From the IMG/VR virus record IMGVR_UViG_3300015195_000016, positions 1 to 25,988 of that record: DNA of 25,988 nt. One strand, 5' to 3'. A model generated the notes under the pieces. The model was not told where the DNA came from. It saw only the letters and a list, made by a program, of their open reading frames with translations, and ran no database searches. Source of the DNA: a virus. A program made the position numbers and the translations under genes. Each line of letters starts with the position of its first letter. Within the stretch, counting starts at the first letter, position 1. Shown one piece after another: positions 736 to 19,580 of the stretch.

Positions 736-1587
736 TTAATATGAAGTTGAATACAATTCTGACCATTTATTACCACCGTCATAATTGTAGGCCTGTACAC
801 CATTAGCTATAGCAATAATGGTTAATGTGCCGCTTACCGTATCTACAGTGTCAGAACCTTGAGCGTATATATTAGCATTAACTGTACTTCTAATTATAAC
901 TTGTGTTCCAGCACTTGGTGAAGCTGGTAATTGCACTGCCGCGTCACCACCAGCCGACGCTATGATTTTATTATAACCAGCCACAAGTATCGGTGAAGAT
1001 GCATGTGCAGCACCTGCCGTTATACTACCCTGGAATGGTAACAATCCAGTACTGATAGTAGTGTATAATAATGACGAACCGTTTGACGTTAATACTTGTC
1101 CGTTTGAACCGACAGATGTTAATCCAGTACCACCGTGTGTTATTGGTAAAGTACCTGTTATTGCAGCAGCAGGTAAGTTTGTGAAGGTGTTTGCTGTACC
1201 ACTCATGCTCTTATTAGTTAAATTATCAGTACTGCTTGCTGTTATAAATCCAGTCGTATTACCGGCTAAATATTGTAAAACCCCAGCAGTTAGTAAATTC
1301 GCAGCCACATCACCAGTCGACCAGTTACGCTGCGCCGTTCCCTCTTGTCCACGTAATACCGTGCAAGTGTCCCCCGATCTTGATGTGCAATAACATATTT
1401 CATTTACAGCTATTCCAGCACTTTGGTCAACAAGAGTTATTGGGAAGAATTGGTTACCAGATCCGTCAGGTACTGGAAATTTAGAACCTGTACCTGTTGC
1501 TAAAACTACAGTCGTGTTACCAATACCACATGGTGATGCTAAAGTAGTACCGGCATTATTAGTCATTAAAAGTGTCGTTAAACTCAT
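736..1587 (-). CDS. Tail fibre / receptor-binding-type protein
   Basis: This 283-aa protein has the composition and layout of a short phage tail fibre. The N-terminal ~95 residues hold a small domain seen at fibre bases (FPVPDGSGNQFFPITLVD, then CTVLRGQEGTAQRNWSTGD). The middle has the motif GTLPITHGGTGLTSVGSNGQ, typical of fibre shafts, and the C-terminal ~100 residues are beta-rich (QVIIRSTVNANIYAQGSDTV). It is expected to attach to the baseplate and contact the host surface. Its ATG overlaps the TGA of the upstream DUF2612-type gene (ATGA), so translation is probably coupled. No chaperone gene is visible nearby. Family assignment rests on motifs recognised by eye; receptor specificity cannot be inferred. 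Confidence 0.75.
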   Translation of the reverse strand: MSLTTLLMTNNAGTTLASPCGIGNTTVVLATGTGSKFPVPDGSGNQFFPITLVDQSAGIAVNEICYCTSRSGDTCTVLRGQEGTAQRNWSTGDVAANLLTAGVLQYLAGNTTGFITASSTDNLTNKSMSGTANTFTNLPAAAITGTLPITHGGTGLTSVGSNGQVLTSNGSSLLYTTISTGLLPFQGSITAGAAHASSPILVAGYNKIIASAGGDAAVQLPASPSAGTQVIIRSTVNANIYAQGSDTVDTVSGTLTIIAIANGVQAYNYDGGNKWSELYSTSY

Positions 1588-2283: not shown

Positions 2284-3474
2284 TCACCCTCTAGTAACAA
2301 TAATACTGCTAGATTGTGTAAAGAAAAAACTTTCAGGATCACCTTCAATTAATCCAGTTCCACCAACTGGGGGTGTTAAAACTGTGTTTATATAAACCGC
2401 GAATATCATTCTTGATATATTTTGAGCTGGTATGAATGCAGAAACGGCGGTTTGAAATACGGTTTGTAATTCGAATAAATTTATAGCGTCACCAACATAT
2501 AAACTATTTATATAATCAGTTAAAGCATTTGCCGCTAATATAGACACTGAATCATTCGATACATAATTAGTGAGAGTAGTATTCCAAGTTACATCTATAG
2601 CTACTGTTTGTAATGGCGGGTTTACATAAATAATATTGTAATTATCTGGGGCGTCGTATATTGAGATTGTTATATTCCTGGAAGTATAAGATGACCCCAC
2701 TAAATGATTAATATCGAATAACGCTTGATATATTGCAAAACCTACGCTATATGGATCTCCCCCTCCACATAGAATTTGCCAATTCCCACCAACTTGTCTA
2801 ACAGATATTAAACGCGATTCCACACCTGGAACATTATTCAATAAAGTCTTTAAGTAAGTTACCATTCCAGTTGAAGCCGCAACCCCAGCTTGTAACACTC
2901 TCATTCTATAATTGTCTGTAGTTTCAGTCCCTGTTGAAGGTGTTCCAGGGTTAAGATTTGTGCAAGTTAGTGTGATTCCGGTCTGTACAGATGTGACAAG
3001 AGTTGTTACAGTATTTGAAGGGACTGCCCATGTACCTGTAATTGTAGCCACACAAAACAATACGACAGTACCACCAGAACCTATCACCCCACCATCTTGA
3101 ACTACGTATTGATGCGAACCGTCAGATACGGTAAAACCCTTAGCAATTACAAATCCAGGTGTGGATGTGAATCTTACAAATACTGATGTATTGGTTGGTT
3201 GCCCCAGTTGAATGCCGTATATCTGGCCAAGTTGATTAAGTAAAAATTCATTAGCGCCGTAAGGGGTTAAACTGTTGACTAATTCTACACGTGCTTGATC
3301 TATAAGGCTCATTGCAGCCGTATCTGTCGATGCTATATCTTCTATAAGAGAACCTGGTAGATTAGCTGTATAGCTAGGGTCAATTGCTTCAACAATAGCG
3401 ACTAATTGATCCCTCAATGATCGGGCAGTTTGAGGTTGTAAACCGTTTTTAGTTATTACTATAGGTAATGTCAT
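2284..3474 (-). CDS. Baseplate wedge J-like protein
   Basis: This 396-aa protein is a baseplate J / gp47-like wedge component. The N-terminus (QTARSLRDQLVAIVEAIDPSY, NLPGSLIEDIASTDTAAMSL) and the segment GANEFLLNQLGQIYGIQLGQ match the usual start of the family, followed by the beta-rich core (VFVRFTSTPGFVIAKGFTV) and the TTDNYRMRVLQAG motif. In the family this protein forms the ring that triggers sheath contraction. The start ATG overlaps the stop of the gp25-like gene, and the DUF2612-type gene follows after 4 nt. The order spike, gp25-like, J-like, I-like, fibre is the classic baseplate order. Length is near that of other J-like proteins, and no defect is visible. Confidence 0.9.
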   Translation of the reverse strand: MTLPIVITKNGLQPQTARSLRDQLVAIVEAIDPSYTANLPGSLIEDIASTDTAAMSLIDQARVELVNSLTPYGANEFLLNQLGQIYGIQLGQPTNTSVFVRFTSTPGFVIAKGFTVSDGSHQYVVQDGGVIGSGGTVVLFCVATITGTWAVPSNTVTTLVTSVQTGITLTCTNLNPGTPSTGTETTDNYRMRVLQAGVAASTGMVTYLKTLLNNVPGVESRLISVRQVGGNWQILCGGGDPYSVGFAIYQALFDINHLVGSSYTSRNITISIYDAPDNYNIIYVNPPLQTVAIDVTWNTTLTNYVSNDSVSILAANALTDYINSLYVGDAINLFELQTVFQTAVSAFIPAQNISRMIFAVYINTVLTPPVGGTGLIEGDPESFFFTQSSSIIVTRG

Positions 3475-4615: not shown

Positions 4616-4822
4616 TTAAACTCCAATAGTGCGTAAACGCATTATATGTCTGACTGGGTGCTGCTTAATGTTAATAAACGCCGGTATGTTGTAATATAAG
4701 AAACAACTTATTAAATCCATTTGTAAATACATAGAAATTTTACTTAGAGTATTGTAATAACCTTCATCTTTAAGATCTTTACGTATACCTAAAGATATTA
4801 ATCGTTTAGTACGTTTATTCAT
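4616..4822 (-). CDS. Small hypothetical protein (moron gene 2)
   Basis: This 68-aa basic protein is not recognised. It begins MNKRTKRLISLGIRKDLK and ends with RHIMRLRTIGV, with a hydrophobic middle (MYLQMDLISCFLYYNIPAFI) that could be a short membrane-associated or buried helix. Its ATG lies one base after the stop of the preceding gene, so it is probably translated by coupling. Its last codons hold the ribosome site of the spike gene. It belongs to the two-gene insert between hub and spike genes, where homologous phages normally have nothing or other small genes. It could equally be a small accessory baseplate gene. Confidence 0.5.
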   Translation of the reverse strand: MNKRTKRLISLGIRKDLKDEGYYNTLSKISMYLQMDLISCFLYYNIPAFINIKQHPVRHIMRLRTIGV

Positions 4823-4823
4823 T

Positions 4824-5258
4824 TTATTTCTCTGACGTTTGAATGAATAACGAATCTAGTAAAATTTGTAAACTGTAATTCATTTCAATATTAATGACGT
4901 TACTTTTGTATAATCTTATTAAAGCATTAGATATTCTAAGGTTTAATTGAAACTTATTCACATGCAGCTCAACATTACACTCTTTAGGATTAACAAGATT
5001 TTTAGGATTAATACGCAACTCAGGTTTAATTTTCATGACATTCCTTTTAAGATTCCACGTTTTAGCACGTTGCGCGATACCGGACGATCTGGCATCATCT
5101 ACATTTCGTGCTAAAACGACATGAAGCTTACCGGCATTACGAGCATTCGCTGTGCGATTCGAAGGGTAATAAAACTCAGTACGAAAACTCGCGCAACGTG
5201 CTAAAACGTGGAATCTTGTCACATTGTGGAAACTACGTAAAATCATATGGATATTCAT
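4824..5258 (-). CDS. Hypothetical moron protein with in-frame palindromic insert
   Basis: This 144-codon frame is not recognised. It has its own promoter/operator and a strong ribosome site (AAAGGAG, 6 nt, ATG at 5258). Residues 14-70 are encoded by a palindromic element and look unlike a folded protein: Arg-rich, with HVLAR and VVLAR repeated. The remainder (MKIKPELRINPKNL onward) looks like an ordinary small protein. A second good start lies right after the palindrome: AAAAGGAATGTC before an ATG at 5036, which would give 70 aa. Either the element was inserted in frame and is translated, or it is a structured leader of a 70-aa gene. The gene overlaps no baseplate gene and is coupled to the 68-aa gene downstream. 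Confidence 0.5.
   Translation of the reverse strand: MNIHMILRSFHNVTRFHVLARCASFRTEFYYPSNRTANARNAGKLHVVLARNVDDARSSGIAQRAKTWNLKRNVMKIKPELRINPKNLVNPKECNVELHVNKFQLNLRISNALIRLYKSNVINIEMNYSLQILLDSLFIQTSEK
5050..5217. repeat. 168-bp palindromic element with perfect 29-bp inverted arms
   Basis: Positions 5050-5078 are the perfect reverse complement of 5189-5217, with a 110-bp centre. The core CGTGCTAAAACG of the arms recurs a third time at about 5107-5118. The element is 168 bp, exactly 56 codons, and it is open in the frame of the surrounding gene. This matches the behaviour of the palindromic elements that insert in frame into genes of Rickettsia and Wolbachia, although I cannot assign it to a known family. 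Folded as RNA, it would make a very stable long-range hairpin between the first ribosome site and a second start codon. Confidence 0.85.
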
Positions 5259-5281
5259 GACGTTCTCCTTTATCTATACTT

Positions 5282-5312
5282 ATGATATGACTCATACTGT
5301 ACAGTATGTCAA
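5282..5312 (-). promoter_or_regulatory. Moron promoter with 16-bp palindromic operator
   Basis: On the minus strand a consensus TTGACA (5312-5307) overlaps the palindrome CATACTGTACAGTATG (5293-5308). The -10 is weaker: CATATC at 17 nt or TATCAT at 19 nt. The TGA stop of the hub gene lies inside the -35 hexamer, so the promoter abuts the upstream gene. The same operator occurs in two promoters near 24 kb. A repressor bound here would block RNA polymerase. Confidence 0.75.
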
Positions 5313-6256
5313 ACCAAATGAGCGTTGAATATCGTGATCCAATCTTGGCCAGTTGTACCTCTGTAATTACCAAGATGTCTGACAGCATCAATCTGAAACT
5401 CACCCTGAAAAACCGAACTATCTCTAAATTGAGAAAAGCTCTGAGCCGTGTTTGTAGCAATAGTCTTAGGCATGTTTACGTACTCACCCACAAGTATATC
5501 AGCCCTCATTATAGTTCTGAACTGAATTTGATTCAAGGATTGCCATACAGGTTGCCCAATTAAATCGTTGAACGACACTTCTTTCGGTGTGGATTTACTA
5601 AACCCATCATATACTGTAAACGTGTTATTACCTATGAGAATTTTAACACCACCATAATCAGCAGACTGATTGGAATATTTAGAAACTTGATTAATGTATC
5701 TGGCAAATTGAGGCACTGTCTGATAAAATCCATATTCACTATTAGCTAATACTAAATTAGGGTTTATATTTATATTTATAGTATAGTTAGGGTAAGCCAC
5801 ACTCAACGTGTTTCTAATAGCGTCTGTTAATGGAGAACCTTTAGCCCAATTAACAATTAAATTTTTTTGATCATTCACAGTTCCCCACCCTGGGATTATC
5901 TGTAAATTTAAATTCATATCAGTACCTTCCCAATTACCAAAAGCTTGCTGAATAACCCCTTGTAAAATTAAACCTCTTTGATCAGGATTAGATAACGGTA
6001 AACCTTTAGACATCCCTGCAAAAACTTGGATATTCATCTTATTTAAATTGAAAGCCGCCCCAATCTCAGTTATAGGTATTCCGTGGATCTTAATGAAAGC
6101 TGCCCCAATTTCTTCAGCTGTTGTAAAAACTGTAATATCAAACTCCACAGATTGTGATGATAGATTATTAGATCCATCTATATTTAAAGTTGTCCATTCT
6201 TGAATAACAGTGTTATTATTGTTAGGGTTCGTTATTATAATATCATAAAATCTCAT
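5309..6256 (-). CDS. Baseplate hub protein (gpD/gp27-like)
   Basis: This 315-aa protein lies where the hub gene is expected, between the plug-like protein and the spike. The N-terminal ~110 residues are beta-rich (VEFDITVFTTAEEIGAAFIK, MNIQVFAGMSKGLPLSNPDQ, LILQGVIQQAFGNWEGTD). The middle segment WAKGSPLTDAIRNTLSVAYP and the later PQFARYINQVSK resemble the hub family, whose members form the trimer between tube and spike. The start overlaps the upstream stop (ATGA). The stop lies in the -35 box of the moron promoter, so the spike gene that normally follows directly is now about 0.7 kb away. Assignment is by position and general pattern. Confidence 0.7.
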   Translation of the reverse strand: MRFYDIIITNPNNNNTVIQEWTTLNIDGSNNLSSQSVEFDITVFTTAEEIGAAFIKIHGIPITEIGAAFNLNKMNIQVFAGMSKGLPLSNPDQRGLILQGVIQQAFGNWEGTDMNLNLQIIPGWGTVNDQKNLIVNWAKGSPLTDAIRNTLSVAYPNYTINININPNLVLANSEYGFYQTVPQFARYINQVSKYSNQSADYGGVKILIGNNTFTVYDGFSKSTPKEVSFNDLIGQPVWQSLNQIQFRTIMRADILVGEYVNMPKTIATNTAQSFSQFRDSSVFQGEFQIDAVRHLGNYRGTTGQDWITIFNAHLV

Positions 6257-7233: not shown

Positions 7234-8751
7234 TTAATGACTCGCTGAACTTAATGCTACCGTCGCGTTACCGCCGGTGTTATTGTTTATCGTAATAGTC
7301 TGATTTTGTGGATTTAATACCTTACTGACTTGTTCAGGAGAGTAACTAGTTTTGTTATTTTCATGCTTAGTTATAGCAGCGACCAATTTGGATAAAATCT
7401 CTTGATTATTTAGATCAAGTTTTTCATTCGCATTAAATCCAGTTCGTTGGCTAACATCTTTTATATAAGCAGTTGTATTATTTTCAGAAGAAGGGGCGTA
7501 TTTATTTATGATTTGAGTTATAGTATTCAAATGGTCTCTGTTTTGATAAAGTTTTAACTGCTTACCTAACGCTGATATACCTGATTCTTTGTTCGGAAAT
7601 ATAGCAAATCCACCAGATTTAGGTAAATTTCCCCACGCTCTTAAATTACCAGGATTATTTCTACCACCAGGATTCGGTTGGTTTGAAAATGAAGTAGGTG
7701 ACCCCCAAGAACCAGAAGCGCCGGATGATTTTGGAGTTTTATCGAAAGCTTTCGAATTACCTGTAATAAAATCCACAGGGTGATCTATTAACTTAGACAT
7801 ACCGGATGTAAAATTGTCTAACGGGTGATCCATTGTTGAATTTAACAACTTAGCTACTGGAAGTAATAAATCGGCGGTTATAACCTTCAAAGACTTAGTA
7901 AATAGGTTAATTTCAATATTCAAATCTTGCCAAGATTTTAATTGAAGATCTGTTTGATCTAGCGCTTTTCTATCTATCTTTTCCTTTTCAACAGCAGCTT
8001 TTATTTCAGCTTCACTGGTGTTTTTTAATAACTGTAGTTCATCAGTGCTGAATCCCATTTCGTGTAATTTAAAAGCCTGAGCAGCTGATTCATTAGCTCC
8101 ATGTTTCATGTAGGTTTCTCTAACTTTAAGAAGAGATTGAGCTAAAAAATCAGCATTATTTAAATTTCTCATCCCACCCAAACCAGCGGCTGATAGTTCA
8201 CCACCTTTAGTAACATCATTTCTAAATTGATTTTGAGCGTGTAAATGTGATCCTACGTCTATAAATTTACCAAAGTTTGTTTCTTGTGACTGCAATTCAC
8301 CAGCACTTATACCAAGAGTTTTAGTTTCTTTTCTGATATTAGCTTCGGATGATGCGACACCTGCCATAACAGCAAATCCTGTACCTAACGCACCTCCTAC
8401 AGCCAAACCAACTGATCCCCATTTACTCATTAAAGCTGTGGTTTCCTTACTAAAATTTAAAATATCTAAATGATTTTTACGAGTTTTACCTGATTGATCT
8501 ACAGTGGTTTTTGATTGTCTGTTGAATTTTATCATTTGATCCACACTAGAATCTAAAGTACCTAATATAGCTTTCGCATCATCACTCAATTTCTTAGTAT
8601 TGTCGGCACCGGCACCTGCACTTTTAGCTACATCCTCCCATTTGGCACCTTGAGCTATCAAATGTTCGTTATATTCATTGAATGAATCTATAAACTTCCT
8701 GTACTGTTCGTCTTTGATTTCAATTTCAATGATGCTTTTTACATCAGCCAT
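7234..8751 (-). CDS. Tape measure protein with C-terminal P5-like peptidoglycan hydrolase domain
   Basis: This 505-aa protein sits between the tail-assembly chaperones and the baseplate genes. The N-terminal ~110 residues are helical and charged, then comes a hydrophobic segment (WGSVGLAVGGALGTGFAVMA, residues ~112-131) that may enter the host membrane. A long helical region follows to about residue 310. Near residue 362 a domain begins with RNNPGNLRAWG, and continues with GFAIFPNKESGISAL, TITQIINKYAPSSENNT and AYIKDVSQRTGF. This is the pattern of the P5-type virion lytic domain known from several phages, used to open peptidoglycan during DNA entry. At 505 residues the tape is short, predicting a modest tail length. 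Its ATG overlaps the chaperone stop (TAATG). Confidence 0.85.
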   Translation of the reverse strand: MADVKSIIEIEIKDEQYRKFIDSFNEYNEHLIAQGAKWEDVAKSAGAGADNTKKLSDDAKAILGTLDSSVDQMIKFNRQSKTTVDQSGKTRKNHLDILNFSKETTALMSKWGSVGLAVGGALGTGFAVMAGVASSEANIRKETKTLGISAGELQSQETNFGKFIDVGSHLHAQNQFRNDVTKGGELSAAGLGGMRNLNNADFLAQSLLKVRETYMKHGANESAAQAFKLHEMGFSTDELQLLKNTSEAEIKAAVEKEKIDRKALDQTDLQLKSWQDLNIEINLFTKSLKVITADLLLPVAKLLNSTMDHPLDNFTSGMSKLIDHPVDFITGNSKAFDKTPKSSGASGSWGSPTSFSNQPNPGGRNNPGNLRAWGNLPKSGGFAIFPNKESGISALGKQLKLYQNRDHLNTITQIINKYAPSSENNTTAYIKDVSQRTGFNANEKLDLNNQEILSKLVAAITKHENNKTSYSPEQVSKVLNPQNQTITINNNTGGNATVALSSASH

Positions 8752-9421
8752 TAAATACCTCTCAACGCCTTAATTATATAACGCTGCTTGAATTCTAACA
8801 CACTGTCGCACTCTAATCCATATTCGCTAAAAAATTCTTTAAAACCGGTAGTACTTAAATATTCTAATATGGAATCGACGATAGTGTCTTTATCTCCGAA
8901 GGTTGTTCCTCGATCAACGTCCGCAAAGAATCTTTGAACTCCGTAGAGTTGTAAGATGTAAGCTGACCCCCCCATAATTCGGTTAATTGTGTCATCGTGG
9001 GGAGTGTTAATTCCTTCTTCGCTACCGATGACACACATGAGAAAAAAACCAACATACCTTTAATTTCGTCAAATTCTTCAGTTGTCAAAACTTTTCGAGA
9101 CAGACAATCCGACAATGTGGATGTAACATAACCGTTAGATGTAGGCATCACTACATTGCATAATCTTACTATTTCATTCATCAAACCGTTGTTAACTGCG
9201 TCTAAAACACCCTCATCTTCAGCTATATCCTTTAAAACTAAATGTGCTATTCTAGGTGCAGTTAGATGTAAGCCTTTGGAGTATATCATACTAAATGTTC
9301 TACTTAAAACCATATAAAATTGATTGAAAATATCCAATGATATTGGAGTGGCATGAACATAAATCACTCCATTATCATCCGGTATTTCCAAAACAAGATT
9401 TAGTTTATTGTTTATACGCAT
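8751..9421 (-). CDS. Tail assembly chaperone, frameshifted long form (G-T type)
   Basis: A -1 ribosomal frameshift at GGGGGGG (8973-8967) would fuse the first ~150 residues of the short chaperone to a second frame that runs to the tape measure start. The junction reads LWGG in frame 0 and MGGSAYILQLYGVQRFF in the -1 frame. The tail of the long form (DTIVDSILEYLSTTGFKEFF and VLEFKQRYIIKAL) is well formed and helical. This is the position and logic of lambda gpG/gpGT: the long form should bind the tape measure and recruit tube subunits. The -1 frame lacks a convincing ribosome site of its own. The predicted fusion is 223 aa. Frameshift efficiency is unknown. Confidence 0.8.
8864..9421 (-). CDS. 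Tail assembly chaperone, short form (G type)
   Basis: The zero-frame product is 185 aa, mostly helical, with the segment YMVLSRTFSMIYSKGLHL and a Cys-containing middle (LCNVVMPTSNGYV). It lies between the tail tube and tape measure genes, where contractile and siphovirus tails carry the chaperone pair. I chose the ATG at 9421, which overlaps the tube gene stop as TAATG; a GTG at 9433 lacks a ribosome site. The frame continues past the slippery run for 34 codons and stops at 8864, so ribosomes that do not slip make this form. It is expected to coat the tape measure with the long form during assembly. Confidence 0.75.
   Translation of the reverse strand: MRINNKLNLVLEIPDDNGVIYVHATPISLDIFNQFYMVLSRTFSMIYSKGLHLTAPRIAHLVLKDIAEDEGVLDAVNNGLMNEIVRLCNVVMPTSNGYVTSTLSDCLSRKVLTTEEFDEIKGMLVFFSCVSSVAKKELTLPTMTQLTELWGGQLTSYNSTEFKDSLRTLIEEQPSEIKTLSSIPY
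8967..8973 (-). other. Programmed -1 frameshift slippery site GGGGGGG
   Basis: In the zero frame the codons are TGG GGG GGT; slipping back one base gives GGG GGG TCA. The run lies late in the first chaperone frame and inside the overlap of the two frames, as expected for a G/GT-type pair. I did not find an obvious pseudoknot by eye. Confidence 0.8.
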
Positions 9422-9861
9422 TATAGATTCCACAATGAATTATTTATGTAGTAAATACCAGTCAGATTTAATACATAACCTGCATTTTTACCACTGAAAT
9501 CTAATGTTTCCACTGATTCAATTGCCACATTAGTAAAATTATAATCGCTCAATGTCGTCGTATCCGTAGTAACGGCGAGATCTCCAATTAATGTGTTATC
9601 TTCCATCTGCGCCTTCCACTGATCGCTCAAAATCTGAGATTTGAGTAGATGGACTTTTACAGAAACTTTAATGTACGGTTCTGGACTTTGAACAACCCCC
9701 GTCAATGTGTCGATGGTTGTTGTAGCGCCGCCACTAAATGATATAGAAATACCTTCTACTGCTAGATTGGCGGCGATTACATTTAATTCTGGGAAATCAA
9801 CAGGAGATACACTACCTCTTAGTCTATTCAATGTTCCTTGTTGTATAAGTGGGTTAGCCAT
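9421..9861 (-). CDS. Tail tube protein
   Basis: This 146-aa beta-rich protein follows the sheath gene, the standard place for the tube subunit. Features include GTLNRLRGSVSPVDFPELNV near the N-terminus, ISISFSGGATTTIDTLTGVV, a long paired strand region (PYIKVSVKVHLLKSQILSDQW) and the C-terminal AGYVLNLTGIYYIN. The RGSV and VHLLKSQ patterns are seen in tube proteins that accompany DUF3383 sheaths (DUF3277 group). A strong AAGGAG site lies about 10 nt before the ATG, consistent with the high output a tube subunit needs. It should form hexameric rings inside the sheath. Confidence 0.8.
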   Translation of the reverse strand: MANPLIQQGTLNRLRGSVSPVDFPELNVIAANLAVEGISISFSGGATTTIDTLTGVVQSPEPYIKVSVKVHLLKSQILSDQWKAQMEDNTLIGDLAVTTDTTTLSDYNFTNVAIESVETLDFSGKNAGYVLNLTGIYYINNSLWNL

Positions 9862-9874
9862 GTCAATTTACTCC

Positions 9875-12550
9875 TTATGCAAACAAGTTAACGTTTAAAT
9901 TAAACACGATATGCTTAAAACCAAGTTGAGGTGTGTAAGCGCACGTCAATCCATTGTATTGACCAATTGCGTAATCACCTGGATTTTCTGATGTATACAC
10001 ACTAAAAGGTTCGGCGTTTACTACAGCGTTTCCTAAATATTTTCCAGCATTTATATTCGCTATGAATACAGCTTGAGGTAATTTAGTTAAAATTACACTA
10101 CCCAGGGTTAAACCGTAACTTACACTATTACCCATTAACTGACCAGCCACTCGTTGTAAATAATCTATACCTGCTTGATTGTAATAAAGAGGAGGTTGTC
10201 TGTTAGATCCATTAATTATAGCATTACTTATAAATAACTGTTCGTTAATCTGCACCCAATCGATTGAGTACCACATGTTTAAAGCATCACCGTTGGCCAT
10301 CACACCATGAAAGTCAATATCAGTCGATATACCACCTTCAGCCCCAGTACCGATATAATTTAGATTAGCAGCTTCAAATGTCGTTTTTTGTGAATTTGTA
10401 ATTGGGTAAGGAGTAACGCCTAAAGCGAAACTGTACGATGATGGTGGTACCTGATTAGTACTAGATGGATTTTGAGAAGCCACCCAGTAAGGCCTGAATG
10501 CGATTGTGAATTCAGTACTAGGTATTCCAGAAGCTTCTATCATTTTATATACGTTTTTTGTTGTGAAACTTGCATATGTAGACAATGTTACAGTCGTGTA
10601 AAAATAGACCTTATCTGTATTCGCATTGTGATTACCAACTAATGTTACATACGTTGATTCTGCATCCCAACCGCGAGGTACTGTGTAAACATAAAACGCA
10701 TTTGGATTATTAGTTAAATATGTGGAGAACGCGGATATCCTAGATGCCGCAGAACCCGCACCTAACTCTAATACGTAAGCTGGGTAATTTGAACCTTGAG
10801 CAAAGTATGTAGTAAACATTGCAGTAACTTCCGTTGCTGGACTACCACTACCTATAATTGCAACAAGATCGGCTAAATCCGTAATTAATGTTGTCACACC
10901 AGCACTTGTCGTTGTTCCACCTTGTGAGATAAAACAAACTTTAGACTGCAATTTATTAGGCGCTGGGGGTCTATTGACAGTCACGTTAACCTGTGTAATT
11001 AAATTCTGTGTCATACCTGACTCCGATGGTGTTGATGCTGTAAATCTGTTGGTGCTGAATGGGGTTGATTGCCCAGTTAATGTGTTAGCTGAAAAACTTG
11101 TAGGATTTAAAAATTTAAAACCCCCAGTAATTGACCATGCTGGCGGAGCTATTAAATTAGCCGGATCGTACAATTGAGTTGCGTCGTACAAATAAAATTG
11201 TATAGATCCAGCACCGTCATCTGCTGAAGGTGAAAATTGTAAAAATCCACGAGTGTTGTCGAATACTGGTGGTAATATACACGCATGTGTTGTTGATACA
11301 GTACTCAACAGAGGTGTCATGTTTAACGGTGAATCTGTAGTATGATCATACCAATACCAGGTTCCATGTGTAGCTGATAAAGAAGTTATAGCAACCCCTC
11401 TCAACCCAGGCGAATTTGTTGTACTTTGATAATCTGAACCAAAATATCCAGCTTCTTGTACTAAATTAAATATTGAATTGAACGAATCCTGTTGACCAAC
11501 CGAACAGGGACTTACCGGTACTACACCACTGAAACTTGAATGAGGCGCTTCATTAACCCATAAAATTGCTTTACCGTAAGCTGCTGTGAACGCCGTTGGT
11601 TCATTACTCAAATTCCAATATGATTGAGTACCGTTAGTCGACGCATGACTAGAAGTAGTTCCGTATTGATCCCAACCAGCAAAATTTAATGTAACATTCG
11701 CTTCGTATTGATTAGCCGCGACATATCTCACGTATGTGGAATTAGATAATAATAATGCGGCTGTAGTAGTTGTACTGCCGTTTGGTACAGTACCAAATCC
11801 TGTCCACGTAATACCATCAGTCGAATACTGCCATGTTCCGGCACATGCTATTATCCCGCTAGTATCCACAAAACTTGTAGCGGTAACACCAGTTACAGCA
11901 ATCCCGCCGTATGCTGGCGAATTAGGGTCGTTATAATTCACTTTAGTTAAAACATCACTTATTAAAATAGCGGGTGATGTGGAATTACGTGCAACGCCGA
12001 ACTCGAACGCTTGAGCATACGGTGAGCCTAACGTTGGTTGATTATGAAGTGATGTTACTACATTTATTGTTAGATTATGCAAAAATAACAAATCTCCTAT
12101 ATGATCATTTGAGTTTGGCGATGATATTGCTGTACCGACAACTCCACCATTAGAATATCCTGTATTATTAGGTATAGCTGGATCATGATCTAGTGCACAT
12201 AAATTTAAACTTGCTATTTCTACAGCCGCTGTGGGTGTATACCTAAACCATGTCACCAAACCGCTGATTAATTCTTTTATTAAGCATGAAACTTTAGGTG
12301 ACCCAACACTACCGCCAGAAAATTGATAAGAATATACGTCAAACCAAGTTGCACCACTATCAGTGCTAATTGACCATTGACCTACACCAACAAGATTATA
12401 AAAATACAACCCCCTATACTGATTTGTAGGATCAGTAGCTTTGTAATATTGCAAATAATTCAAAATTGCAGTACTAGTTATTATTAAAGGGCTGCTAGAA
12501 ACTAATATGTTATAAGTATCTATATTATTATTTATTGTAGGTTGGGTCAT
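9875..12550 (-). CDS. Tail sheath (DUF3383) with N-terminal adhesin-repeat extension
   Basis: This 891-aa protein joins two unlike parts. Residues 513-891 read as a DUF3383-type contractile sheath: VNVTVNRPPAPNKLQSKVCF, FTTYFAQGSNYPAYVLELGAG, ANLNYIGTGAEGG and WYSIDWVQINEQLFISNAI. Residues 1-512 contain three degenerate repeats of the cadherin/adhesin type, each with W-x-YSTD-GxxW, then RYxP or RYVAANQY, then an A-x-D element: W59/RY103/ALDHD119, W240/RY275/GWDQ292 and W398/LQFSP437/YLYD453. A typical sheath of this family would be near 380 aa. The ATG at 12550 has no clear ribosome site and lies 3 nt after the preceding stop. The ATG of codon 513 has GGAG 6 nt upstream, so a short sheath may be made as well. 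The repeats would probably face outward from the tail. Confidence 0.85.
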   Translation of the reverse strand: MTQPTINNNIDTYNILVSSSPLIITSTAILNYLQYYKATDPTNQYRGLYFYNLVGVGQWSISTDSGATWFDVYSYQFSGGSVGSPKVSCLIKELISGLVTWFRYTPTAAVEIASLNLCALDHDPAIPNNTGYSNGGVVGTAISSPNSNDHIGDLLFLHNLTINVVTSLHNQPTLGSPYAQAFEFGVARNSTSPAILISDVLTKVNYNDPNSPAYGGIAVTGVTATSFVDTSGIIACAGTWQYSTDGITWTGFGTVPNGSTTTTAALLLSNSTYVRYVAANQYEANVTLNFAGWDQYGTTSSHASTNGTQSYWNLSNEPTAFTAAYGKAILWVNEAPHSSFSGVVPVSPCSVGQQDSFNSIFNLVQEAGYFGSDYQSTTNSPGLRGVAITSLSATHGTWYWYDHTTDSPLNMTPLLSTVSTTHACILPPVFDNTRGFLQFSPSADDGAGSIQFYLYDATQLYDPANLIAPPAWSITGGFKFLNPTSFSANTLTGQSTPFSTNRFTASTPSESGMTQNLITQVNVTVNRPPAPNKLQSKVCFISQGGTTTSAGVTTLITDLADLVAIIGSGSPATEVTAMFTTYFAQGSNYPAYVLELGAGSAASRISAFSTYLTNNPNAFYVYTVPRGWDAESTYVTLVGNHNANTDKVYFYTTVTLSTYASFTTKNVYKMIEASGIPSTEFTIAFRPYWVASQNPSSTNQVPPSSYSFALGVTPYPITNSQKTTFEAANLNYIGTGAEGGISTDIDFHGVMANGDALNMWYSIDWVQINEQLFISNAIINGSNRQPPLYYNQAGIDYLQRVAGQLMGNSVSYGLTLGSVILTKLPQAVFIANINAGKYLGNAVVNAEPFSVYTSENPGDYAIGQYNGLTCAYTPQLGFKHIVFNLNVNLFA
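11012..11024 (-). promoter_or_regulatory. Internal ribosome binding site and start inside the sheath gene
   Basis: GGAG (11024-11021), a 6-nt spacer and an in-frame ATG (11014-11012) lie at codon 513. This is exactly where homologous sheaths begin (MTQNLITQVNVTV). It is a better initiation site than the upstream ATG at 12550. It predicts a 379-aa short sheath in addition to the 891-aa form. Confidence 0.6.
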
Positions 12551-12553
12551 ATT

Positions 12554-12919
12554 TTAGTCGAAACTTACAGAAACTGTTTGACCAGTTCCAGGTGTGATCA
12601 CAATTCCAACTTTAGCTGGAAAGTTTAGAGGATAAATTCCGACAGTATTAGGTATTGTCGCTATTAAATTACCAGCAGCCACAGCTCCCGTTGTTGCAAC
12701 ATCACTCACTGTTCCGGCCGCACTTCCAGCTACATTAACGATAACTTTACCTATTTTACCAGGTGTGGCTTTCACAACAGTAGCTGTTGAAATATTCAAT
12801 AAAGAATTTAAACATTCCGCTGAATGTACAGGGACATTTCCTAAAGCGTCAAGGCTTATTGTGGTTTGGGCATTCGATGTGTTTTTAGCAATTGTGGTAG
12901 CTAAGGGATTTTGTGACAT
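12554..12919 (-). CDS. Small phage structural protein (minor, decoration-like)
   Basis: This 121-aa protein has a short helical start (NPLATTIAKNTSNAQTT) and a C-terminal beta domain with the recurring phage pattern ATPGKIGKVIVNVAGSAAGT, VAAGNLIATIPNTVGIYPLN and FPAKVGIVITPGTGQ. I recognise this as a common hypothetical virion domain but know no assigned role. It lies between the neck-region protein and the sheath, with an AAGGAA ribosome site. The sheath ATG follows after 3 nt. Possible roles are a neck or head decoration or a tail terminator; its fold would decide. Confidence 0.6.
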   Translation of the reverse strand: MSQNPLATTIAKNTSNAQTTISLDALGNVPVHSAECLNSLLNISTATVVKATPGKIGKVIVNVAGSAAGTVSDVATTGAVAAGNLIATIPNTVGIYPLNFPAKVGIVITPGTGQTVSVSFD

Positions 12920-13830: not shown

Positions 13831-14306
13831 TATTTTATTTCCACCCATGCAGTAAAATTACTTTCATACATACCCGTGTCCCTAAAGCTTGGACGCCTGG
13901 CACCTTTAAATTTTTTTAATCTTGATGAATACCCCATTAACGCAGCTTGAGTAGGTACTGTCAATCTTATACTCTTGCCATTTTTAAGAGTTCTACCAGT
14001 GCTTAAAAACGTATTTTCAGACTTTATGATATCTTCATTCTGTATAAATTTTCTAAACTTAGTTTGTATTTTACTTACAGCCCCATCGAATGGTTTTAAT
14101 TGTAAAATGTCAGCCCCATTTTTAACTGAAAATAAAGCATTATTTAGTGAATCCCTAAGTGAATCGGCAATATCTTTAGAGTTTAATTCGTAAAAATTTT
14201 CCATTACACTATATCTATTTTCAAGTATTTCAGCGACCCCTCCGGTCGTCATACCCCCCTTTGTGTATGGTACATCGTAAACACCCAGATGTAGGATGAT
14301 ACTCAT
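13830..14306 (-). CDS. Head-tail completion / neck protein
   Basis: This 158-aa protein contains the segment MTTGGVAEILENRYSVMENF followed by a helix (KDIADSLRDSLNNALFSV). This segment recurs in tail-completion proteins of DUF4054/DUF3383-type phages. The C-terminal half is basic (SRLKKFKGARRPSFRDTGMY) and ends in a strand. It starts at ATG 14306, overlapping the adaptor gene stop as TAATG, and its own stop overlaps the next start in the same way. The likely job is closing the neck between adaptor and tail. Assignment is by motif and position. Confidence 0.6.
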   Translation of the reverse strand: MSIILHLGVYDVPYTKGGMTTGGVAEILENRYSVMENFYELNSKDIADSLRDSLNNALFSVKNGADILQLKPFDGAVSKIQTKFRKFIQNEDIIKSENTFLSTGRTLKNGKSIRLTVPTQAALMGYSSRLKKFKGARRPSFRDTGMYESNFTAWVEIK

Positions 14307-14953
14307 TATACACCACTCAATGATAATGAGCCAAATTTTTGAGCGTACATGGCGTAAAACCTACCGTAAGGAGTTTTAAGTATATCTAAATCATTAAGAC
14401 TAACATTATTAACCCAATTTGGAGTAGTAAGCGATTCCGATGTGGATTCATCGGCTGAAGATTTTATTAATCCAGGTACAAAATTGTTCATGTGGTAAGT
14501 TGCTCGCAGTGTTTCAAACAAATTAAAACCTGCTTTACCTGCAATAATACATGTTCCGGGATTTATTGATATTGGGTATGTAAAATGAGTACTATTAATC
14601 ACCGTTATCGATTGAACACCATTGTAGGATTGTGGCACAACGTTAGATACAAGTATTGTATTACCAGTAACGAAAGTGTTTACAGTAATCGTAGTTGCAG
14701 CCACAACACCGCTACTCCAAGTTAGTGATGCTAGAAGTACCGAGTAATCTCTAGCGATTGATATTAAAATATGACCAGCTAGATTGTAGACCATCAGCGG
14801 GTATATTGTTTTCCATTTACAAAACCAATGATTAACTTGTTCTTTCGCTAGACAATACGATAATTCGATATCAAGGGAATCGTCCGGTAAATACTGAATT
14901 GGTATCCCCATTTGAGTACGAATAAATACTATATAGTCAGCTAACGAGATCAT
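14306..14953 (-). CDS. Head-tail adaptor (DUF4054-type) with inserted beta module
   Basis: This 215-aa protein has the layout of DUF4054 adaptors, which bind the portal ring. The N-terminal helices (YIVFIRTQMGIPIQYLPDDS, ELSYCLAKEQVNHWFCK) and the C-terminal half (GFNLFETLRATYHMNNF, TPYGRFYAMYAQKFGSLSL) match the pattern. Between them, at residues 76-139, lies a ~64-residue insert reading SLTWSSGVVAATTITVNTFV to INSTHFTYPISINPG. The same module is present in the decoration-type protein encoded at 16525-17361. Without it the protein would be about 150 aa, closer to the usual adaptor size. It overlaps both neighbours by 4 nt or less. Confidence 0.75.
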   Translation of the reverse strand: MISLADYIVFIRTQMGIPIQYLPDDSLDIELSYCLAKEQVNHWFCKWKTIYPLMVYNLAGHILISIARDYSVLLASLTWSSGVVAATTITVNTFVTGNTILVSNVVPQSYNGVQSITVINSTHFTYPISINPGTCIIAGKAGFNLFETLRATYHMNNFVPGLIKSSADESTSESLTTPNWVNNVSLNDLDILKTPYGRFYAMYAQKFGSLSLSGV

Positions 14954-16524: not shown

Positions 16525-17361
16525 TTAAAGAATCACAAGCGCACAAGCGCCTGAATTATTATAATTTACAGATCCTGTTACCGAATTGTAAACAGCAACA
16601 CGAGAATTACCGGCTTGAATCTTAAGAATTTTAACTGTTAAAGCACCACCACCGGCTAACACTACAGGACTCCCCGTTGCAGGACTTGCTCCTGGATTAA
16701 CAGGTAAACTGTAAGTAAAGTGTGTGGAATCAACAACGATCACTTTAAAATCCCCATTATACCCTGATGGTGTTGCACCGCTAATAGTTACCCAATCACC
16801 TGTAACTAATGTGTTTGCTGCTGAGCTTGTGGCACTAGCAACACCACCTGACCATGTCAACGAACTTAAAGTTAACTGGGAGGTTTGGCTGTTGTAAGGT
16901 ACAATTTGTTGATTTGTGAAATCCCAGGAGACCTGTTGTGTAATCAAGCCCCCATCAATACTTATTAAAGCTGGATCGCATGCTAATGGGACTCGTACAC
17001 CAGATCCTAAGCGACAAAATTGAACCCCCATACCGCCGCTTATAGTGGGCACGTTAGAACTTTGGGAAATTATCGCACTATGTAAACTATTAAATACTGT
17101 AAAACCTGTAATATTTAACACGCTACTATTGCTAGCTAAATCCACAATACTACCTAAAGGATCGTCGCTTGTTGGAATAAATTCGCTTATAGCCATACCA
17201 GCATAAACTGGTAAAGATTGAGTTGATTTAAGTACACCTCCGGCGATTTTATAAATGTTCACAGGGTCGTCTTGGATAATCCCCTGAACATAACCACCAG
17301 ACTGTACGTTAAAACTACCTGCTGCATTGGAGGTAGCTATAGGATTAACTATAATGCCCAT
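16525..17361 (-). CDS. Capsid decoration-type protein with shared beta module
   Basis: This 278-aa protein precedes the capsid gene, as cement or decoration proteins do in DUF2184 phages. The first ~160 residues resemble a known structural protein pattern (GSFNVQSGGYVQGIIQDDPV, LPVYAGMAISEFIP, VQFCRLGSGVRVPLACDP, VSWDFTNQQIVPY). Residues 165-237 carry the inserted module SLTWSGGVASATSSAANTLV to VDSTHFTYSLPVNPGASP, also found in the adaptor protein. The last 40 residues return to the base fold (VKILKIQAGNSRVAVYNS). The start overlaps the protease/scaffold stop (TAATG). The role is inferred from place and composition. Confidence 0.65.
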   Translation of the reverse strand: MGIIVNPIATSNAAGSFNVQSGGYVQGIIQDDPVNIYKIAGGVLKSTQSLPVYAGMAISEFIPTSDDPLGSIVDLASNSSVLNITGFTVFNSLHSAIISQSSNVPTISGGMGVQFCRLGSGVRVPLACDPALISIDGGLITQQVSWDFTNQQIVPYNSQTSQLTLSSLTWSGGVASATSSAANTLVTGDWVTISGATPSGYNGDFKVIVVDSTHFTYSLPVNPGASPATGSPVVLAGGGALTVKILKIQAGNSRVAVYNSVTGSVNYNNSGACALVIL

Positions 17362-18837: not shown

Positions 18838-19580
18838 TTTTTCATCGCATCCTTACCTTTAGCTGTTAGCATATCATCTGGTAAATCTTGTATCGCGTAC
18901 AAATAAGTTCCGTAACATCTACAAAATGGTTCTTTTGAAAATCCCGGTGACTCATCGTAATAACCATGTTCACCGAGTTTCATTAAACCTGCGTTTTTAG
19001 CCCAATTACCTCGTATTGTAAATATTTTACCATCAATATCTTTATGGTCTTCACGGTAATTATAGCCCATTTCTTGCCAGTGGCTATTCCAAATTACAGC
19101 GATCGCCCCACCGTTTTCGGCAATAATGTTGTTTATGTTTGCTGTTAGTTTGTGGGATTGATCGATAATTACTCTACGCTCTACAAAAGGTAGTTGTTTC
19201 AAAGATTTTTTAACTTCTTCGCGCATTTCAGGATCAGGTTTACTATCGCTAGTTATCCAACCGCTTAATCTTCTGATCGTCTTATCTATAGCCTCTTCAC
19301 GATTAAGTTTAATCAAGTTTGCGCTGGCAAATATTCGTCTATTTAATTCTTGCCGCAATTGAGGTTCGATACGTTCAACCCCAACAGCCATTCTAATAAT
19401 GCTGTTAAATTTACCTCTAAATGTCCTATCTAACAGTAATTGCAGCTTATCTTCTGGCATCATCTGCTTAATTGCAGCATCTCGCACTAACTTAATCCAC
19501 AATTGTAATTGTTGTTCTGTAGTGTAACCTTGAGCGCTCGCTTCATTTATCACTTTATTTATTACACTGTAATAACTCAT
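18834..19580 (-). CDS. Head morphogenesis protein (Mu gpF-like minor head protein)
   Basis: This 248-aa protein follows the portal gene, the usual place of Mu F-like proteins. The C-terminal domain carries the characteristic pattern YNYREDHKDIDGKIFTIRGN and then SPGFSKEPFCRCYGTYLYAI; the CRC near residue 225 is typical of these proteins. The first ~110 residues are helical. Mu gpF-type proteins are minor head parts attached to the portal and may enter the host with the DNA. The start overlaps the portal stop by 4 nt. Assignment from motif plus position is good. Confidence 0.8.
   Translation of the reverse strand: MSYYSVINKVINEASAQGYTTEQQLQLWIKLVRDAAIKQMMPEDKLQLLLDRTFRGKFNSIIRMAVGVERIEPQLRQELNRRIFASANLIKLNREEAIDKTIRRLSGWITSDSKPDPEMREEVKKSLKQLPFVERRVIIDQSHKLTANINNIIAENGGAIAVIWNSHWQEMGYNYREDHKDIDGKIFTIRGNWAKNAGLMKLGEHGYYDESPGFSKEPFCRCYGTYLYAIQDLPDDMLTAKGKDAMKK

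Follow-up and report, generated by a model that had tools for sequence, protein, structure and literature searches.

A phage tail sheath gene joined in frame to three bacterial adhesin-type repeats, with a candidate internal start at the junction

Results

The virus record IMGVR_UViG_3300015195_000016, an environmental sequence of 25,988 bases (hereafter the window), carries on its minus strand a tail sheath gene with a long N-terminal extension. A single unbroken open reading frame (ORF) of 891 residues, running from 12550 to 9875, fills exactly the interval in which an earlier sequence-only reading had placed it, with the strand left unstated. Sequence homology confirms residues 1–512 as predicted cadherin-like repeats, three in number, of the type common to giant bacterial adhesins; sequence comparison and modelling likewise confirm residues 513–891 as a complete contractile sheath. 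The junction between the two lies exactly at the ancestral sheath start. An apparent Shine-Dalgarno (SD) site precedes Met513 and none precedes the long start. With slightly less than even confidence, we favor a model in which the repeat array is fused to the N-terminal arm of the sheath, armed and plain subunits co-assemble, and the arms project from the tail. Decoration of sheaths is already known, and an N-terminal adhesin array was found in no relative or source searched. What is new is that the addition is N-terminal, that its repeats are of adhesin type and that the junction lies at the ancestral start.

Adhesin-type repeats in the N-terminal extension

The sequence-only reading had recognized three repeats in residues 1–512. 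Using a profile built solely from bacterial adhesin repeats, we obtained 97.3 bits in three domains for the whole extension, compared with 8.7 bits for the best of 1000 shuffled extensions that served as the control. The same profile places in the extension tandem units of about 150–170 residues with a GTWxYSTD / WDQ / VNxAP pattern. The three copies start near residues 14, 169 and 333, in register with tandem triples of the adhesins, and the last one closes with STPFSTNRFTAS, as bacterial repeats do (Table 1). The motif details proposed earlier fared less well. The third copy (WYWYDHTTDSPL) is degenerate and does not contain YSTD-GxxW, the RYxP element of the second copy is missing its P, and the supposedly matched spacing of W59, W240 and W398 is in fact 181 and 158 residues.

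Table 1. Coordinates of the sheath gene, its parts and the adjoining genes in the window
Feature	Position	Strand	Extent	Remarks
Upstream gene	12554..12919	minus	121 residues	No PHROG match
Whole ORF	9875..12550	minus	891 residues	Triple-repeat N-terminal extension and tail sheath
Extension	11015..12550	minus	Residues 1–512	Predicted tandem cadherin-like repeats of bacterial-adhesin type, three copies
Repeat 1	12053..12511	minus	About residues 14–166	15.4 bits to the bacteria-only profile; alignment; strands and helix 29–35 in the model
Repeat 2	11555..12046	minus	About residues 169–332	Best conserved copy (GTWQYSTDGITW ... FAGWDQY); 74 bits; best bacterial match E 9e-20
Repeat 3	11021..11554	minus	About residues 333–510	Starts NEAP, ends STPFSTNRFTAS; 24 bits; natural repeat boundary
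GGAG, SD-like	11021..11024	minus		6 nucleotides ahead of the Met513 ATG
ATG of Met513	11012..11014	minus		Reads ATGA; aligns with the codon at which ordinary relatives start
Sheath half	9878..11014	minus	Residues 513–891	Complete contractile sheath; lacks the domain that relatives usually have inserted
Probable tail tube gene	9421..9861	minus		phrog_6566; conserved order

The homology of the extension surfaced in plasmid and genome searches. In a tblastn search, residues 1–512 matched a protein on a Tistrella plasmid at E 6e-8; cadherin-like and DUF4347 proteins of Azospirillum matched weakly. When repeat 2 was aligned with bacterial repeats and the alignment used as the query, 172 loci in bacterial genomes matched, the best being from Pseudomonas at about 39% identity; most of these loci lie within very long ORFs and have their repeats in tandem. 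The bacterial homologues match Pfam Cadherin_3, Cadherin_4 and Big_9. The extension itself matches nothing in Pfam, NCBIfam, PHROGs, the PDB sequences or 50,697 phage records, and scans of viral contigs with the extension or its repeat were likewise negative. The giant adhesins concerned (the Pseudomonas and Azospirillum DUF4347 proteins, the Tistrella plasmid protein and one from Thalassospira) resemble the extension in their VNDAP linkers and in a GTWxYSTD...W...WDQ core within homologous repeats of the same length. They differ in being secreted proteins of thousands of residues, whereas here three diverged copies belong to a phage sheath.

The predicted structure of the extension is of moderate confidence (predicted local distance difference test, pLDDT, 67.5) and shows a similar strand-helix-strand order three times. 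Foldseek searches with this moderate-confidence model gave generic Ig-like matches only, and no ligand-binding head was identified in the extension.

We also asked if the extension could be foreign host DNA, and rejected this on its codon usage, GC content and GC at third codon positions (GC3). The codon log-likelihood of the array is -1.036, against -1.003 +/- 0.058 for the rest of the phage; GC3 is 0.24 against 0.26, and overall GC also matches. Because its composition equals that of the rest of the phage, the array is not a stray host fragment.

The sheath half and its relatives

Residues 513–891 match the tail sheath family PHROG 205 with an E value of 1.2e-24. The earlier assignment to a DUF3383-type sheath thus holds for the sheath itself, and less so for the family, as the Pfam DUF3383 match is weak (E 0.028; 13.8 bits, below the cut-off of 34.9). 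The AlphaFold model of this half (pLDDT 85.6; predicted template modelling score 0.84) has the conserved sheath fold with its N- and C-terminal parts; its arms are disordered, as is to be expected of a monomer. Foldseek and VIA group it with solved sheaths, the comparison with the Sf14 sheath (9c3b) giving Z 26.1 and a root-mean-square deviation of 2.9 Å over 308 residues. This comparison with solved structures led us to reject the idea that the extension belongs to the sheath fold. Searched separately, as had been suggested, the first half is made of adhesin repeats rather than ordinary sheath domains and the second is a sheath; the homology of both halves supports the proposed fusion.

The first well-aligned residue in the VIA comparison is approximately 533, twenty residues after Met513, and corresponds to chain residue 20–36 in most rows of solved sheaths. 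Because those sheaths have 20–36 residues before this point, a product starting at Met513 would have an N-terminal arm of normal length. Such a product would begin with the short inter-subunit arm; in the 891-residue product, 512 residues lie ahead of it.

None of 82 distinct sheath relatives carries an N-terminal array, indicating that members of the family do not normally have the extension. The relatives are 386–547 residues long, usually 433–469, and mostly not about 380 as the sequence-only reading had it, because nearly all carry an inserted domain. In 79 of the 82, an insert of 53–142 residues follows core position 58 and usually consists of a small beta domain bearing the signature TPAGYNG; in two others, L003 and L006, alignment places different inserts at core position 118. 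The undecorated L015 (386 residues) is the only one of the earlier estimated size, and the only relative as plain as the core described here. A further relative, L178, was found separately through the 121-residue upstream gene (41%); its sheath has a repeat-rich GSGY insert, apparently also at core position 118, instead of the array. A search for relatives through the capsid gene found none.

The closest described counterparts in PHROG 205 are Klebsiella phage Chronis gp11 (464 residues) and the sheaths of Yersinia vB_YenM_29.18, Shewanella QDWS and Escherichia Rac-SA53, whose cores are about 36–53% identical to this one and whose gene order is shared. Their first residues align to residue 513 onward. 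In contrast to the gene described here, these ordinary sheaths start at the equivalent of Met513, have as an insert a beta domain that varies and lies at core position 58 or 118, and carry no N-terminal array.

Bacterial genomes were also surveyed for longer sheaths. The relatives found in 398 sampled genomes of one phylum have open frames of 379–537 residues, and other prophage sheaths reach 902. The position of the extra mass was examined in the six loci with the longest frames. These sheaths were rejected as N-terminal fusions: the added mass is internal, behind the usual N-terminal motif of YPGVYVEE type.

Two observations concern inserts in virion proteins of this group. The sheaths of L178 (7154-8803), L003 (3977-5299) and L006 (328-1767) carry differing inserts, either tandem GSGY-type repeats or an FN3-like domain, and the family seems to be a general display platform. 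The TPAGYNG-type beta domain is absent from the sheath of the window, yet present in a 278-residue gene just downstream of the protease (16525-17361; phrog_6268; E 4e-13) and in a 215-residue gene of the neck region (14306-14953; E 7e-12). This distribution is domain shuffling among virion proteins.

A candidate internal start at the junction

The GGAG ahead of Met513 has a predicted duplex energy of -6.1 kcal/mol, the ninth strongest among 109 internal ATGs and stronger than the gene-start mean of -4.8 kcal/mol. The long start at 12550 has no SD (duplex -0.9 kcal/mol). The stop codon of the 121-residue gene lies 3 nucleotides ahead of it in the same frame (TAA AAT ATG), so that reinitiation at the long start is plausible.

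In the history that we consider simplest, the array came to lie ahead of a sheath gene that was still intact, with loss of the array's own stop. The array would thereby have been added directly upstream of a sheath gene that kept its start codon and ribosome-binding site. The long, armed sheath would be started by reinitiation after the 121-residue gene, and a plain sheath of 379 residues would be started at Met513 in the same reading frame. Co-assembly of the two forms would give a partly decorated tail; only some subunits would be armed, because packing would be hard if every inner linker bore 512 additional residues. Arms projecting from the tail surface could let it reach further or could touch the cell surface weakly and reversibly ahead of contraction, as has been proposed for the FN3 extension of SPP1 gp17.1*. 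A more specific version, in which a nested gene sets the armed fraction of a mosaic tail by making plain sheath from the internal start and adhesin-armed sheath from the upstream one, with the arms at the tips of the N-terminal linkers, is possible rather than probable; we found no precedent for decoration at these linker tips.

Several observations weigh against the co-assembly model. About 8% of internal ATGs reach the SD strength of the Met513 site, and the local accessibility of this site is ordinary (rank 81 of 114); Met513 and its SD may be mere relics of the gene before fusion. The array model is only of moderate confidence. The fusion was seen in one contig only, as no second contig with the junction DNA pattern was found in the data searched. 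Nor is the binding of a ligand implied, since in bacterial adhesins such repeats serve mostly as extender rods (PMC7493085). Outward display, which the sequence-only reading had inferred, is a separate matter: it is not automatic, because the N- and C-terminal linkers of sheaths lie in the inner domain (PMC5797969). In the type VI secretion system, lengthening the sheath linker by at least 2 residues blocks contraction (PMC5797969); this comparison is only partial, because here the array precedes the linker. Given that the N-terminal linkers lie in the inner domain, two sheath forms would ease the packing problem, which is a point in favor of the model.

Alternative explanations

The earlier picture of a sheath studded along its whole tail presumes that every subunit is armed. 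In that case all subunits would be of the 891-residue form, the Met513 site would be a silent relic, and six three-domain arms would protrude per ring along the entire tail. The ORF is continuous with phage-like codon usage, large multi-domain sheaths exist (PMC9230969), and the arm precedes a complete N-terminal linker, leaving the linker length between strand and core unchanged. Against these points, no SD precedes the long start even though sheath protein is needed in many copies, the N-terminal linker lies in the inner domain, and the other large sheaths examined add mass within the chain. A mixed sheath is at least as likely as a fully armed one, because Met513 corresponds to the start codon of ordinary sheaths and has an SD-like GGAG, and the long start has none. 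We therefore regard a uniformly armed tail as rather unlikely, while giving it appreciable weight.

It is less probable still that the extension and the sheath are two genes with an ATGA overlap, joined here by a one-base indel or by a stop-to-sense error or mutation. The TGA in the +1 frame overlaps the ATG of Met513, which has an SD-like site of its own, and this explanation keeps some weight because the same arrangement recurs at other gene pairs in the window (1584-1587, 3471-3474, 6253-6256 and 19577-19580). The TCG, GAG and TCA codons just ahead of Met513 are each one base from a stop, so that a single base change could have removed a stop in the last 18 or so nucleotides of the extension. 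However, the frame is correct up to STNRFTAS, the repeat end. Since this end is intact to approximately residue 507, a joining indel would be confined to about 18 nucleotides without homopolymers. In addition, no free-standing array gene was found near the sheath of any relative.

A third explanation, which we consider improbable, is that the array is made fused and then cut off by proteolysis, or serves in assembly only, and is not on the virion. Packing could be blocked by so large an addition to the inner N-terminal linker, and cleavage of virion precursors is common in phages; on the other hand, we found no protease site and no precedent for sheath maturation, and none of our tests speaks for this explanation. 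Chimeric assembly of a host adhesin fragment into the phage contig is very unlikely: the array has its homologs in bacterial adhesins, with none among the phage records, and it comes from a single contig, but both borders are gene-exact and in frame (3 nucleotides after a stop and exactly at a start codon), composition is that of the phage, and even the best bacterial match has only the modest identity given above.

Comparison with known tail decorations

Inserted Ig-like domains are found in many sheaths, and a role in adhesion has been proposed for such sheaths (PMC9230969). The decorations so far described are inserts that point away from the tube, with a suggested function in attaching phages to cells. 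The claim that a decorated sheath of this type had not been described was thus too strong, the more so as nearly all relatives carry inserts; only the N-terminal position and the type of repeat are unusual. Like the type 2 and type 3 multi-domain sheaths with their additional Ig-like domains (PMC9230969), the protein would place extra domains, here putative beta-sandwiches, on a sheath; unlike them, its domains precede the whole core and are cadherin-like repeats of adhesin type. An array at the N-terminal arm probes which sites of a sheath accept additions, and shows that a small phage has taken up modules of bacterial adhesins.

Phage SPP1 mixes long and short tail subunits, gp17.1 and gp17.1*, at a ratio of 3:1 (PMC8718954), the minor form having an Ig-like domain. 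The likeness lies in a possible tail subunit of two lengths. In SPP1 the addition is C-terminal, made by frameshift and located on the tail tube, whereas here it is N-terminal on the sheath and, if two forms exist, would arise from an internal start. If both are made, the internal start would be a simple means of building a mosaic tail, comparable to the SPP1 frameshift.

Gene neighborhood

The minus strand of the window encodes a structural module of myovirus type, consisting of small and large terminase, portal, head morphogenesis, protease, a head decoration-like gene, capsid, neck genes, sheath, probable tube, tape measure, baseplate hub, wedge and a tail-fibre gene. The sheath gene sits between the neck genes and the tube in the tail operon, an order also seen in the Chronis, QDWS, Yersinia and Rac-SA53 phages. 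Small genes occupy the place equivalent to the 121-residue gene in L003, L006 and L178, the L006 copy being visibly similar to it; Chronis has no small gene ahead of its sheath. The gene after the sheath is probably the tail tube, judging from its PHROG match and the conserved order.

The next gene (8864-9433), which matches phrog_11810, is best read from a GTG at 9433 and overlaps the end of the probable tube gene. The interval 4626-5309, which separates the hub from the tail gene that follows, contains no recognizable gene, its ORFs of 68, 144 and 75 residues matching no PHROG; it may hold a decayed or unusual baseplate gene. The tape-measure-like protein (7234-8751) has a C-terminal match of lysis type (phrog_873), and its length of only 505 residues suggests that the tail is short.
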